This document shows positions 3,601 to 8,686 of a stretch of DNA of 64,000 bases, in pieces; within the stretch, counting starts at the first letter, position 1, and each line of letters opens with the position of its first letter. Both the position numbers and the translations under genes were made by a program. The notes below the pieces were generated by a model that worked only from the letters and a program-made list of their open reading frames with translations, was not told the DNA's origin and searched no databases. Location of the stretch: contig NZ_JADKYM010000009.1 of assembly GCF_015475875.1 (NCBI RefSeq), positions 62,001 through 126,000 of the forward strand. Reading direction: 5' to 3'. This stretch comes from Sphingopyxis solisilvae (GTDB lineage Bacteria; Pseudomonadota; Alphaproteobacteria; Sphingomonadales; Sphingomonadaceae).

Positions 3601-3630
3601 GCTACAAATGTAGCACGCTACAAATGTAGC
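3601..3630. promoter_or_regulatory. two tandem BlaI-type operators
   Basis: The 14-base palindrome GCTACAAATGTAGC occurs twice with no mismatch, at 3601-3614 and 3617-3630, a 16-base period. Each carries the TACA/TGTA half-sites known for BlaI/MecI operators. They end 16 bases before the blaI start and probably cover its promoter; a TTGCCA at 3588-3593 could be the -35 box. This suggests self-repression of the whole operon. Confidence 0.75.
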
Positions 3631-3646: not shown

Positions 3647-4024
3647 ATGTTGTCTAGTTTGCCACCGCGGGAACGCGAGATTGTCGATATTCTCTATGAA
3701 CGCGGTGCGTCGACGGTGACGGAGATCGGCGACGCGCTGTCCGACGAACTGTCGGGATCGGCGATCCGCGCGATGCTCAAGCGGCTGGAGGCGAAGGGCT
3801 TTGTGGCGCGCCAACAATCGGAGCGCGGCTTTGTCTATGCACCGAGCGTGTCGGACAAGACGGCGCGCAAATCGGCGCTGAGCCAGGTCGTGCGGGTGTT
3901 TTTCAACGGATCGGCAACCAGCGCCGCCGCGGCGCTGCTGGGCATGCAGGACGAGATGAGCGCGGACGAACTCGACGAGCTGGAAAAGCTGATCGGGCAG
4001 GCGCGCGAAGGGAGGGCGAAATGA
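3647..4024 (+). CDS. blaI: BlaI/MecI/CopY-family transcriptional repressor
   Basis: A small repressor of about 125 residues. It has the winged-helix domain typical of BlaI (LPPREREIVDILYERG, then SGSAIRAMLKRLEAKGFVARQ as the recognition helix and wing) and a C-terminal dimerisation part rich in Asp/Glu and Leu. In known members the repressor is cleaved after activation of the membrane protease BlaR1/MecR1. Here the next gene is such a protease and overlaps it by 4 bases (ATGA). An upstream in-frame GTG at 3638 is possible, but the purine-rich GAGGTGAG lies just ahead of the ATG at 3647. Confidence 0.9.
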   Translation: MLSSLPPREREIVDILYERGASTVTEIGDALSDELSGSAIRAMLKRLEAKGFVARQQSERGFVYAPSVSDKTARKSALSQVVRVFFNGSATSAAAALLGMQDEMSADELDELEKLIGQAREGRAK

Positions 4025-5778
4025 TGATCACCACCGCGATGCTGATCGGGCTTGCCTGGAAATCGGTGGTGATCGCCGGGCTGACGCTGGCGCTGCTGCG
4101 GTTGGCGCGGACGCGATCGTCGGGCGAGCGATCGCTGGTCGCGCATATCGGCCTGCTTGCGCTGCTGATGCTGCCGGTCGCTTCGCTGGTCCTGCCGCTG
4201 TGGCAGCCGCTGCCCGCAAGCTGGGTTGCCGAGGCGGCCCCGACGGCTTCCGTCCTCACCGAGACAGGGGGATCGGCGGTCGATCCGGCCGTCGCCGCGG
4301 CTTCAGTCCCTGCCGTGGCCGACACCGCCGGCCCGCCGCCGATCAGCCTGTCCGCGTGGGGCGATCTTGCCCCCTTTCTCTATCTTGTCCCGTTCGCGCT
4401 GCTGTTTGGAGTGATGCTGGTCGCGGTGCTGCGGCTGTTCGCGATGCGTCGGCGCGCCGAGGTGCTGGTCGACGGGTCCTGGCTGTCGGCGCTGGCCGAG
4501 GCGCAGCGGCGGATGGGATTCAAACATGGCACTGCGTTGCTGGTCAGCGACGAATTGCGCTCGCCGATCAGCTGGGGGCTGCTGCGCTCGACGATCGTGC
4601 TGAGCCCGAAAGCGGTGCAGGCGGTCGGCGAGGCCGAGGCGATTATCGCGCACGAACTGGCGCATATCACGCGGCTCGACTGGGCGAAACTTCTCGCTGC
4701 GCGCGCCGCCTGTGCGGTGTTCTGGTTCAATCCGCTGGTATGGATGCTGGCGCGCGAGAGCCACCAGCTTCGCGAGGAAGCCGCCGACGACGCGGTGCTG
4801 ATGGCCGACATCGACGGCCCCGATTATGCCAGCCTGCTGGTCGGCGCGGCGCGGCACGACAACAAGGCGGCGTTGATGGCGGCGCACGGCGTCGCGCCGT
4901 CGCAGGGCAGCCTGAAACGCCGCATCACCCGCGTCCTCGATGCGAGCCTGCGGCGTGGACCGGCGAGCGCGAGCTGGGTGTTGATGAGCCTGGTCGTGCT
5001 GGCGGGGCTGACCGCGCCGCTCGCCGCCTTTTCGGCCACCGCGTCCGAAGAGCGGGCTACGGCGAAAGACGCCCGGATCGCGGCACTCGCCGCGCAAAAG
5101 TCGGCTCTGGCGACCAAGCAGCAGGCAACAGCAACCAAGGCCGAGGCAGCGGTGGTGGCCGAAGCCGCCGCGACCGACCGGCGGCTGAGCGCCGAGGAAC
5201 TGGTAAGTCTGCGCGCGGTGGGGGCGACCCCGGACTTTGTCGCGCAGATGCGTGAAGAGAGCGGCCCGATGAGCGCCGGGGAGATTATTTCGGCCAAGGC
5301 GAGCGGGGTCGATCCTGCCTATATCCGGGCCATGCGCCAGATCTTTCCGAAGGTCGATGTCGGCGATCTGATCGGTGCGTCAGCACTGCATATCGAACCA
5401 GCCTTTGCCCGCGACATGAAATCGCATTTCCCCGACATCGGCATCGACGATGTGATCGCGCTGCGCGCGATGGGGATCGACTGCGATTTCGTCACCGACA
5501 TGCAGAAGGCAGGCGTATCGATGCGCAGCGCCGGTGATGCGATCGAACTGCGCGCCACGGGGATGACCCGGTCGCGATCAAAGCCGAAACCGGCAGCCGC
5601 GCGGTCGCAGCGGGGCGCATCGGTCAGCACCGGTCCCAACGGGTCGATGGAAGCGCGCAGCGGCGATGGCCGTGTCGCGCGGATGGAATCTCCGGCACCG
5701 CCTGCAGCGAGCGCCCCCCCGCGCCCCCCGGCGACTGACGCGCGACAAACCGACGCCCGGACATTCGTCCAAGCCTGA
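4021..5778 (+). CDS. M56-family (BlaR1-like) membrane zinc metalloprotease with C-terminal repeats
   Basis: A 585-residue integral membrane protease. Membrane segments are seen at about 5-27, 39-60, 117-140 and 316-339. The zinc site HELAH is at residues 211-215, followed by LREEAADDAVL, as in the M56 family, which senses a signal outside and cleaves the partner repressor BlaI inside. Classic BlaR1 ends in a penicillin-binding domain with STxK; that is absent. Instead residues about 388-514 hold four to five units of roughly 28 residues with the pattern xxDDhIxhRAhGhxPxFhxxM. The tail (about 515-585) is rich in Pro, Ser and Arg. The same repeat appears in the next gene. The signal sensed is therefore unknown. 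Confidence 0.88.
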   Translation: MMITTAMLIGLAWKSVVIAGLTLALLRLARTRSSGERSLVAHIGLLALLMLPVASLVLPLWQPLPASWVAEAAPTASVLTETGGSAVDPAVAAASVPAVADTAGPPPISLSAWGDLAPFLYLVPFALLFGVMLVAVLRLFAMRRRAEVLVDGSWLSALAEAQRRMGFKHGTALLVSDELRSPISWGLLRSTIVLSPKAVQAVGEAEAIIAHELAHITRLDWAKLLAARAACAVFWFNPLVWMLARESHQLREEAADDAVLMADIDGPDYASLLVGAARHDNKAALMAAHGVAPSQGSLKRRITRVLDASLRRGPASASWVLMSLVVLAGLTAPLAAFSATASEERATAKDARIAALAAQKSALATKQQATATKAEAAVVAEAAATDRRLSAEELVSLRAVGATPDFVAQMREESGPMSAGEIISAKASGVDPAYIRAMRQIFPKVDVGDLIGASALHIEPAFARDMKSHFPDIGIDDVIALRAMGIDCDFVTDMQKAGVSMRSAGDAIELRATGMTRSRSKPKPAAARSQRGASVSTGPNGSMEARSGDGRVARMESPAPPAASAPPRPPATDARQTDARTFVQA

Positions 5779-5864: not shown

Positions 5865-6596
5865 ATGAAAACCCCCGTACTCGCTGCCACCGCCGCGCTG
5901 CTGACCATCTTGACCTGCGCCGCGCCGAGCAGCGCCGCCGACCCGCTCGTCATGCGCGACATCGAATGGAAGGCGTGGCCCGGCAAGACCCATCCGCAAT
6001 TGCAGGTGAGCCGCGAACGGTCGAGCAGTAGCCTGTCGCTCGACGGCCGCCGCCGTGAACTGGCGCCTGCGCGCGCCGCGATCGGGGGCGGTGCCGGTCC
6101 GGTGGCGTTCACCGTGACGCACGACGCAGGGACGCTCGCCTGTACCGGAGTGCTGACCCGCGCGTTTGAGGGTGGCGGCAGCTGTCGCTTTAATGCCGAC
6201 CCTGCGTTCGAGGCGGCGCTGGATGCACGCGGGCTGAAACCCGACCGGCGCAGCGACACGCTGGCGATGCTGATGGTCGATGCGACGATTGTGCTGGCCG
6301 ACGGGCTGAGCGAGGCCGGGGTCAAACCGAAGGACGCCAACGACCTGATCGCCGCGGCAGCGCTGGAGGTCACGCCCGCCTATATCCGCGACCTCAAATC
6401 CGAGGCATTGGTGCTGACGAAAGTCGACGATGCGATCGCGTGCAAGGCGCTCGGTGTCGATGGCGCCTATATGCGCGGACTGGCCGCGGCGGGCTATCGC
6501 AAGCTGAGTGCCGACGATGTGATTGGCATGAAGGCGCTGGGGGTCACTGGCGCGTATGCGACGGCGATGAACCGCGCGGCGCAGGGGGCCAAGTGA
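5865..6596 (+). CDS. secreted protein with BlaR1-type 28-residue repeats, function unknown
   Basis: A 243-residue exported protein. A signal peptide (1-24, ending PSSA|AD) is followed by a beta-rich region with two cysteines (VTHDAGTLACTG and GGGSCRFNAD, possibly a disulphide). Residues about 145-243 then carry three units of the same repeat as the M56 protease, for example DDAIACKALGVDGAYMRGL and DDVIGMKALGVTGAYATAM. It lies 86 bases after the protease gene and its stop overlaps the next start (TGATG). The shared repeat suggests that it and the protease bind each other or the same target in the periplasm. I know no named function for it. Confidence 0.8.
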   Translation: MKTPVLAATAALLTILTCAAPSSAADPLVMRDIEWKAWPGKTHPQLQVSRERSSSSLSLDGRRRELAPARAAIGGGAGPVAFTVTHDAGTLACTGVLTRAFEGGGSCRFNADPAFEAALDARGLKPDRRSDTLAMLMVDATIVLADGLSEAGVKPKDANDLIAAAALEVTPAYIRDLKSEALVLTKVDDAIACKALGVDGAYMRGLAAAGYRKLSADDVIGMKALGVTGAYATAMNRAAQGAK

Positions 6597-8686
6597 TGCG
6601 GCTGGTCAGCCTTTGCGCTCTCTCCACCGCAATCGCGGTGCCGGCGCTGGCGCAGGAATCGCCGACCACCGGCAACGCACCGCCGCCAGCGGCGAATGAG
6701 GGTGCGGCAAGCGGCAACAGCGCCGGACGGCAAGTTTTTACTCCCGCCGATTTTGCCCGCTACGCGCCGACCAACGCCTATGACATGCTCAATCAGGTTC
6801 CCGGATTTTCGATCCGCGACAATGAAAATCTGCGCGGACTGGGGCAGGCGACGGGCAATGTGCTGTTCAACGGCGAGCGGCCGTCGAACAAGGGCGACGA
6901 TATGTACACCCAATTATCGCGCATCCCCGCGGGCAATGTCGAGCGGATCGAGATTGTCGATGGAGCAACGCTGGATATTCCCGGTCTTTCGGGACAGGTC
7001 GCCAATGTCGTCTATCGCGCGGCAAGCTTTTCGGGACAATTTTCGTGGAAGCCCGAATTTCGCGCCCATTATACCGACCCGCTGCTGACCCGCGCCGACG
7101 TGTCGATCCGCGGCACCGCAGGGGCGGTGGAATATGAGGCGGCGCTGAGCAACGACGATTCGGCGCGCAGCGGCGCGGGCGGGGTGACGCTGATTGCCGA
7201 TGGTGCGGGCAATATCGTCGAACGCCGTGACGACATCTGGAACACCCATTATGACTCGCCGAAACTGTCGGGACGGATCAAATGGGCCGTGCCGGGCGGC
7301 AGCATCGTCAATTTTGGCGGTCATTATCAGCGCCAATATTACCGCTATGACGAAGATGGCGTTCGCACGGCGGCGGGACAGGCCGACCGCCTGCGCACGG
7401 TGCGCGACACCGAAAACACCTGGAATTACGAGCTGGGCGGCGACTGGCAGTTCGGACTGGGGCCGGGCAAGCTGAAGCTGATCGGGCTACGGCGCTTTAG
7501 CCACGAACCCTATTCGCAAGAGGTTATCACCCGCTTCGCCGATGGCGCGCCGTCGACCGGCGACCGCTTTGCGCAGACCGGAAAACTGGGCGAGACGATC
7601 GCGCGGGGCGAATATCAGTGGAAGATGTTCGGCGGCGACTGGCAATTGTCGGGCGAGGCGGCGTTCAACAATCTGGACAATGTCGCTTCGATCGGGGTGC
7701 TCGTTCCCGGCAGCGGATTCGTCGACCAGCCGTTTGCCGGTGGTACCGGCGGGGTGAGCGAGGACCGGTACGAAGGCTTGCTGAGTTTTGGGCGCCCGTT
7801 GACGGACAAGCTGTCGTTCCAGATCGTCGCGGGGGCCGAACATTCGACCATCGCGCAGGCGGGGCCGACCGGAATCGAACGCAGCTTTTTCCGGCCCAAG
7901 GGGTCGTTGACGCTGAGCTGGGCGGCGTCGGCCGATTTCGACGCATCGCTGAAAATCCGGCGGCGGGTGTTGCAGCTGTCCTTTTACGACTTTCTGGGCC
8001 GCGCCTTTTTGAATGACGGCAACCAGAACGAGAATAATTTCGACCTGCGCCCGCAGCAGGACTGGAGTTTCGAGTTCGAGGCGAACCGGAAATTCGGCGC
8101 GTGGGGCTCGACCAAGCTGATCCTGATCCACCGCGACGTCGAGGACCGCGTCGACATCGTCCCGGTCGGCAATGGCGAGGCAGTGGGCAATATCGCCAAA
8201 GCAAAGGCCAGCGCGATCGACTGGACCGCGACGGTCAACCTCGACCCGGCGGGGATCAAAGGCATGAAGGTCGAAACGCGCGTGCTGTTGCAGAAATCGT
8301 CGCTGCGCGATCCGTTTACCGGCGAAAAGCGGCAATGGAGCGGTTTTACCGATACCGTGATCGAAGGCAGCGTCCGCCACGATATCCCCGGCAGCGACTG
8401 GGCATGGGGGGGCGGAGCGAATTACGGTCATTACCAGCCGCGCTATCGCAGCAACCAGGTCGATAAAGTGTGGGAGGGGCCGGTGTTTGCCAACGTCTTT
8501 GTCGAGCACAAGAATGTGATGGGGCTGACGGTGCGCGCGCAGGTCCGCAATATCGCGAACGCCCGTTCAAGGCGCGAACGGATCGTATATTCCGGCTTGC
8601 GCGGCGACAGCGCGGTCGCCTTTACCGAATCGCGCGACCGGCTGATCGGGCCGATCTTCTCCTTTTCGGCGCGCGGGACGTTTTGA
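6596..8686 (+). CDS. TonB-dependent outer membrane receptor
   Basis: A 696-residue outer-membrane protein. A signal peptide (ending ALAQE) is followed by a plug domain (about 45-140, TPADFARYAPTNAYDMLNQVPGFSIRD split over two strands, then VERIEIVDGATLDIPGLSGQ). The rest alternates in the way of a beta-barrel and ends in phenylalanine (SFSARGTF), as outer-membrane barrels do. The N-terminal reading frame can be extended back into the previous gene, but the start at 6596 overlaps that gene's stop by one base and begins the signal peptide. It is the last gene of the blaI operon, so its expression is probably released when BlaI is cleaved. The substrate is unknown. Confidence 0.85.
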   Translation: MRLVSLCALSTAIAVPALAQESPTTGNAPPPAANEGAASGNSAGRQVFTPADFARYAPTNAYDMLNQVPGFSIRDNENLRGLGQATGNVLFNGERPSNKGDDMYTQLSRIPAGNVERIEIVDGATLDIPGLSGQVANVVYRAASFSGQFSWKPEFRAHYTDPLLTRADVSIRGTAGAVEYEAALSNDDSARSGAGGVTLIADGAGNIVERRDDIWNTHYDSPKLSGRIKWAVPGGSIVNFGGHYQRQYYRYDEDGVRTAAGQADRLRTVRDTENTWNYELGGDWQFGLGPGKLKLIGLRRFSHEPYSQEVITRFADGAPSTGDRFAQTGKLGETIARGEYQWKMFGGDWQLSGEAAFNNLDNVASIGVLVPGSGFVDQPFAGGTGGVSEDRYEGLLSFGRPLTDKLSFQIVAGAEHSTIAQAGPTGIERSFFRPKGSLTLSWAASADFDASLKIRRRVLQLSFYDFLGRAFLNDGNQNENNFDLRPQQDWSFEFEANRKFGAWGSTKLILIHRDVEDRVDIVPVGNGEAVGNIAKAKASAIDWTATVNLDPAGIKGMKVETRVLLQKSSLRDPFTGEKRQWSGFTDTVIEGSVRHDIPGSDWAWGGGANYGHYQPRYRSNQVDKVWEGPVFANVFVEHKNVMGLTVRAQVRNIANARSRRERIVYSGLRGDSAVAFTESRDRLIGPIFSFSARGTF

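Follow-up and report, generated by a model that had tools for sequence, protein, structure and literature searches.

We propose, at a probability of roughly 60%, that the window (the whole 64,000-nucleotide stretch of DNA analyzed) encodes an autoregulated BlaI/M56 signaling operon in which an alpha-solenoid built from a 28-29-residue repeat, common to the membrane protease and to a secreted partner protein, serves as the receptor part. This reading is favored because of the BlaR1-like core, the BlaI repressor with its upstream dyads, the conserved pairing of protease and partner, their fusions, and the solenoid models of both proteins. The BlaI/M56 kind of system is already known; what is new is the repeat and the proposed two-protein receptor, and the repeat-bearing protease with its partner probably forms a type of receptor, present in several phyla, that has not been described before. 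Proteases of the BlaR1 type are known mostly for sensing antibiotics. A branch whose receptor is built of repeats and accompanied by a conserved second component makes sensing of signals other than beta-lactams by such systems testable, and it exposes a repeat family left unnamed and partly mislabeled (LytB, helix-hairpin-helix) in Pfam and NCBIfam.

A four-gene operon and its candidate operators

The genome (3.38 Mb, 50 contigs) carries, in this order on the plus strand, genes for a BlaI-type repressor, an M56 protease, a secreted 243-residue protein and a TonB-dependent receptor (Table 1). The start of the M56 gene overlaps the blaI stop (ATGA), that of the receptor gene overlaps the partner stop (TGATG), and 86 bases separate the M56 gene from the partner gene; the four genes read as one operon. 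A search of 72,556 plasmid records with the protease and with the partner protein of locus L042 gave no match.

Table 1. Features of the operon and of the region preceding it, in window coordinates
Feature	Position	Strand	Basis
BlaI-type dyad CTACAAATGTAG, first copy	3602..3613		Exact match; 0 expected in window shuffles
BlaI-type dyad CTACAAATGTAG, second copy	3618..3629		Exact match; 0 expected in window shuffles
BlaI/MecI-type repressor, 125 aa, no cysteine	3647..4024	+	PF03965 84.6 bits, cut-off 22.6 (Pfam); cysteine count
M56 membrane metalloprotease with repeat tail, 585 aa	4021..5778	+	PF05569 102.9 bits, cut-off 31 (Pfam)
HELAH (HExxH) zinc-protease motif, aa 211-215	4651..4665	+	Motif scan; conservation
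Predicted last membrane helix, aa 317-336	4969..5028	+	Model helix; hydropathy peak 320-338
Repeat unit 1, aa 389-416	5185..5268	+	Self-match, profile, model
Repeat unit 2, aa 417-444	5269..5352	+	Self-match, profile, model
Repeat unit 3, aa 445-472	5353..5436	+	Self-match, profile, model
Repeat unit 4, aa 473-500	5437..5520	+	Self-match, profile, model
Partial unit 5, one helix, aa 501-516	5521..5568	+	Model helix 504-512; profile score just 2.3 bits
Secreted partner, 243 aa: beta domain and repeats as in protease	5865..6596	+	Model; N-terminal signal judged by eye
Predicted beta domain of partner, aa 33-111, six strands	5961..6197	+	Model
Degenerate helix pair of partner, aa 129-150	6249..6314	+	Model helices 129-137, 142-150; no notable profile match
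Three repeat units of partner, aa 158-238	6336..6578	+	Profile and model
TonB-dependent receptor	6596..8686	+	PF07715 40.2 bits, cut-off 23.9 (Pfam)

Two TACANNTGTA-type dyads lie 18-45 bases upstream of the blaI ATG at 3647 and are candidate BlaI sites; for the related CopR-CopY repressors, TACANNTGTA is described as the core of the operator (PMC7253601). A dyad precedes blaI in 23 of the 24 sphingomonad loci with a repeat-bearing M56 protein (two copies in 20, one copy in 3), in 7/14 loci with a repeat-less M56 protein and in 0/31 loci of other phyla. Since the dyads also occur at repeat-less loci and are absent from these loci of other phyla, they mark BlaI in sphingomonads and not the repeat system. 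Genome-wide, CTACANNTGTAG is found at three sites, two before the operon and one before the other blaI gene, versus 2 for the reversed control; the number of sites is therefore no evidence, but their places are. The corresponding figures for TACANNTGTA are 4 sites versus 19 for the control, the fourth site lying inside an ORF. The visible regulon is the operon itself, and both BlaI proteins of the genome might share sites. The second blaI-M56 pair (contig C7; L001, L204) has one dyad before blaI, and its M56 protein has a different C-terminal end, with neither repeats nor another Pfam domain.

The repeat tail and the secreted partner

The M56 protein combines four hydrophobic helices with the HELAH motif, in which H211, E212 and H215 are invariant across 31 sequences. 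Its repeats had been announced in the preliminary description as four to five units at 5184-5570, behind the last membrane helix of a BlaR1-type protease. That placement was borne out by Pfam, motif scan and model, and we found four 28-residue units plus a partial fifth, in frame with the M56 ORF (aa 389-516, nt 5185-5568). Matched against itself without gaps over 22 residues, the tail scored at best 52, against a mean of 28.5 (SD 4.0) and a maximum of 45 in 500 shuffles. Stronger than this self-match was the match between the tail and the secreted neighbor (66; mean 25.1 and maximum 41 in 500 shuffles). An AlphaFold2 model built on 31 sequences (mean pLDDT 78.5) places helix pairs at the repeat period (391-399/404-414, 419-427/432-441, 447-455/460-469, 475-483/488-496) and then a helix at 504-512, with pLDDT of 89-98 over ten-residue blocks from 391 to 510. 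The tail is thus modeled with high confidence as an alpha-solenoid, the architecture first suggested from its length. A Pfam scan of the protease (E up to 10) returned M56, M48 below its cut-off and a weak eCIS_core match, and nothing else; the protease repeat profile matched DotG/IcmE with an E of 1.1e-4.

The claim that the BlaR1 sensor had been replaced by repeats held in part. The M56 protein contains no ST.K and no K[TS]G, and the STxK serine named beforehand as the sign against the claim is absent, the sole S..K occurrences being at residues 518 and 520. Pfam detected no penicillin-binding or transpeptidase domain in the protease (E up to 10) and no penicillin-binding domain in 31 relatives (E up to 0.01), and NCBIfam blaR1_generic reached 66.5 bits, below its cut-off of 400. 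Replacement itself is unproven: a penicillin-binding domain was found in 0/10 repeat-less M56 relatives scanned, of 14, and one such relative, L041 (5829-8045, minus strand), has a C-terminal DUF2807, another extracytoplasmic domain; therefore, the word "replaced" cannot be claimed. The C-terminal ends of M56 proteins vary as a rule in these relatives.

The partner carries protease-type repeats behind a small beta domain and matched no Pfam or NCBIfam family (E up to 10). Its repeats, the fusions, the operators and the spread across phyla go beyond the preliminary description. The partner model, built on 41 sequences, reaches a mean pLDDT of 85.1 and shows six strands followed by four helix pairs, of which the first is degenerate; this array is likewise modeled as a solenoid with high confidence. 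Cysteines 93 and 107 (residue numbers of the partner encoded here), kept in at least 90% of eleven aligned sequences, may form a disulfide.

Family searches with 41 partners gave weak LYTB matches in 21 (best E 3.8e-8) and SAM_GIDA_C matches in 13; in eight other proteins, the cut-off was exceeded by HHH_5 in L155 (32.0 versus 27 bits) and by DUF447_C in L116 (26.6 versus 24.8). We read the LytB, GidA, NrdH, HhH and similar matches as small helical likenesses summed over units. Those two above-cut-off hits aside, neither the repeat nor the beta domain appears to have an accepted family in Pfam or NCBIfam. Given the weak LytB matches, automatic annotation may call partners LytB-type reductases. 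A literature search, with most subscription papers outside its reach, found no description of these repeats and no match to the string IHGVTP.

Pairing and fusion of protease and partner across phyla

The repeats are present in other M56 proteins too, a point raised for checking in the preliminary description together with the genes that follow them. The order blaI, M56 with repeats, beta domain with repeats was found at 53 distinct loci in several phyla, and the partner gene lies directly downstream on the same strand in 54/54 split pairs (53 distinct; the DNA of L040 contains that of L146, and the pair is counted once among distinct loci). The tally over all loci is 54 split pairs, 9 fusions, 5 repeat-bearing M56 proteins without partner and 25 partners without M56, the M56 counts in pairs and fusions resting on the catalytic-domain profile. 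Of the 63 pairs or fusions, 57 have BlaI; each of the remaining six has an M56 ORF that runs to the end of the stretch. No partner was detected by profile beside the M56 genes of L043, L106, L107, L108 and L119, the last of which starts at the stretch end; the 25 partner proteins lack an M56 gene within the stretch examined, some stretches being cut and some not. Loci L044 and L045 of a single sphingomonad genome (G081) encode two partner proteins, neither with an M56 gene inside its 10-kb stretch.

In the 40-locus set, 24 M56 proteins have at least two repeat units, and for 20 of them the partner gene is adjacent (not L043, L106, L107 and L108), a proportion biased toward partner presence in L091-L108, which were found via the partner profile. 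At the loci found through M56 (20 places plus one, not a random draw), the partner lies beside 5/6 repeat-bearing versus 0/14 repeat-less M56 genes (p = 0.0004, ignoring relatedness). The partner profile, repeats included, matched in 3/398 genomes sampled from the phylum and in 21/296 from the order. A degenerate DNA pattern for the unit core retrieved 87 stretches in genome contigs; 80 were taken as loci, and 79 of them (all except L121) have at least three units in one ORF. Chosen by the repeat motif, these loci are informative on arrangement and not on frequency. Acidobacteria make up most of their titles, followed by Myxococcota, Chloroflexota, Bacteroidota (with Rhodothermia) and Gemmatimonadota; alphaproteobacteria (Sphingomonas, Parvularcula) also occur, as do single records of WOR-3, Eisenbacteria, Comamonas and Actinomadura, in which misassignment is possible.

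Nine fusions join M56, beta domain and repeats, in this order, in one chain, under Bacteroidota (L120, L152, L155, L158, L159, L171) or Acidobacteriota titles (L125, L138, L182). They are the best evidence that protease and partner may act together. In Chloroflexota, the repeat also stands, without M56, behind a segment resembling SHOCT (PF22746, with a score that exceeds the cut-off in L117 and L185 but falls short of it in L122); therefore, it is not tied to M56, and these and other Chloroflexota proteins suggest a further use of the repeat.

A TonB-dependent receptor gene ends the operon in 19 of the 24 sphingomonad loci with a repeat-bearing M56 protein; none follows in L043, L099 and L101, it lies further on in L103, and L042 ends at the contig edge. 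Outside alphaproteobacteria, no downstream family occurred twice among 30 neighboring ORFs scanned of 84, some of them on the other strand. The receptor is not, judging from these neighborhoods, a general output of the M56-repeat system. Two Acidobacteriota loci (L109:2-1933, L165:1399-3960) have a permease gene of the MacB/FtsX type at most 9 bases after the partner.

Proposed mechanism and comparison with known systems

The proposed autoregulated circuit builds on features seen in the sequence, namely gene order, dyads, the HExxH motif, repeats in both proteins, conserved pairing and natural fusions. At rest, BlaI would occupy the two dyads before blaI and keep the operon repressed. A periplasmic ligand, or a changed seating of the partner on the protease array, would provide a signal that crosses the membrane by way of the predicted last helix and reaches the M56 site in the cytoplasm. 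BlaI would then be cut by the protease, and the operon, including the TonB-dependent receptor gene, would be transcribed. By analogy with BlaR1, solenoid and partner would act as the sensor and the receptor as one output; ligand binding, array-array contact, BlaI cutting and derepression are all inferred. Counted against this model are the 5 M56-repeat proteins without partner, the 25 partners without M56, the Chloroflexota repeats without M56, the occurrence of dyads at 7/14 repeat-less loci and 0/31 loci elsewhere, and the lack of a common output outside alphaproteobacteria.

A more specific and tentative proposal is that two arrays, related yet distinct, one on the protease and one on the partner, dock in the periplasm, and that a ligand binding to the partner weakens or strengthens this docking and so switches the repressor-cutting protease, in an undescribed receptor class that extends across phyla. 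Outside alphaproteobacterial loci, His occupies unit position 16 in 85% of the 342 units of partners and in 94% of the 83 units of fused proteins, versus 16% of 192 units in protease arrays, where Gln accounts for 44%. The protease and partner arrays are therefore kept different, as complementary partners might be. At this position in alphaproteobacterial loci, the predominant residues are Leu, Val, Met and Phe, with His in 9% of protease and 22% of partner units. Matched array length was rejected as a sign of pairing: across all 54 pairs rho is 0.69, but it drops to 0.28 (p 0.13) when the 30 pairs from outside alphaproteobacteria are taken alone, so that relatedness can explain the match.

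We consider it doubtful that the beta domain alone senses the ligand in a PAS- or Cache-like pocket, with the repeats as a spacer or dimerization scaffold that couples it to the protease. The beta domain does sit between protease and repeats in the fusions, and many of the 50 structural matches for the partner, which cover residues 25-124 alone, are PAS, LOV, phytochrome or Cache domains (coverage of the protease array in structural matches was minimal). However, this structural comparison is weak (best Z just 5.6, 78 aligned, rmsd 3.1), and CBF-beta and others appear among the same matches. Moreover, long arrays of 3 to 13 units are kept, and where protease and partner are separate proteins, the protease has repeats and no beta domain.

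That the partner is instead a regulated output, e.g., a periplasmic binder or scavenger outside a sensor formed by the protease on its own, seems unlikely. It would fit the partners without M56, and the frequent position of the partner outside alphaproteobacteria as the last gene, with the next gene on the other strand, but it sits poorly with nine protease fusions and constant adjacency. A sensor of beta-lactams whose penicillin-binding domain has diverged, to which a gene pair and operators of the BlaI-BlaR1 type might point, is already contradicted by motif, Pfam and NCBIfam searches, the all-helical tail of the model and the scan of relatives, and deserves almost no credence.

The sensor model of a solenoid shared by protease and partner can be set beside several known systems. 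The metal site of CopY consists of cysteines. CopY-like copper control was rejected for the BlaI protein here, which scored 41.6 bits against an NCBIfam cut-off of 121.95 and has no cysteine; what it has in common with the CopR/CopY copper repressors is described as the superfamily and the TACANNTGTA operator core (PMC7253601).

Kinship with TAL-effector repeats, likewise two-helix units, was rejected in favor of resemblance without membership. TAL-effector units are 33-35 residues long, versus 28-29 here. The partner profile matched a TALE chain with a summed E of 4e-14, but single stretches of this best hit reached only 0.06-0.33. The protease profile gave no match to TAL-effector repeats up to E 1, and the array aligned to two TALE-type chains with Z scores of 5.7 and 5.4, below the chance level for helical repeats. 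The designed repeat protein O43_129 (PDB 8v2d) matched the protease and partner profiles with E of 5e-9 and 7e-5, respectively; it is an artificial sequence, which probably stems from PMC10972742, so the likeness is one of helical units alone. The SHOCT-like Chloroflexota proteins have the same repeats, without M56 and, by profile, without the beta domain.

A further close counterpart is S. aureus BlaR1/BlaI (PDB 8exp, 8exq, 8exr, 8exs, 8ext), which likewise has a BlaI-type repressor adjoining an HExxH M56 protease with a C-terminal extracytoplasmic part. The M56 core aligns with S. aureus BlaR1 at Z 18.8 (rmsd 4.2, 252 aligned; profile E 4e-12), a protein described as cleaving BlaI directly under the control of its extracellular sensor (PMC9834060). 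Unlike S. aureus BlaR1, the protease has no beta-lactam-binding domain and ends in a predicted repeat solenoid, and the operon, with no beta-lactamase gene, instead supplies a TonB-dependent receptor and a conserved secreted partner built with the same repeats.
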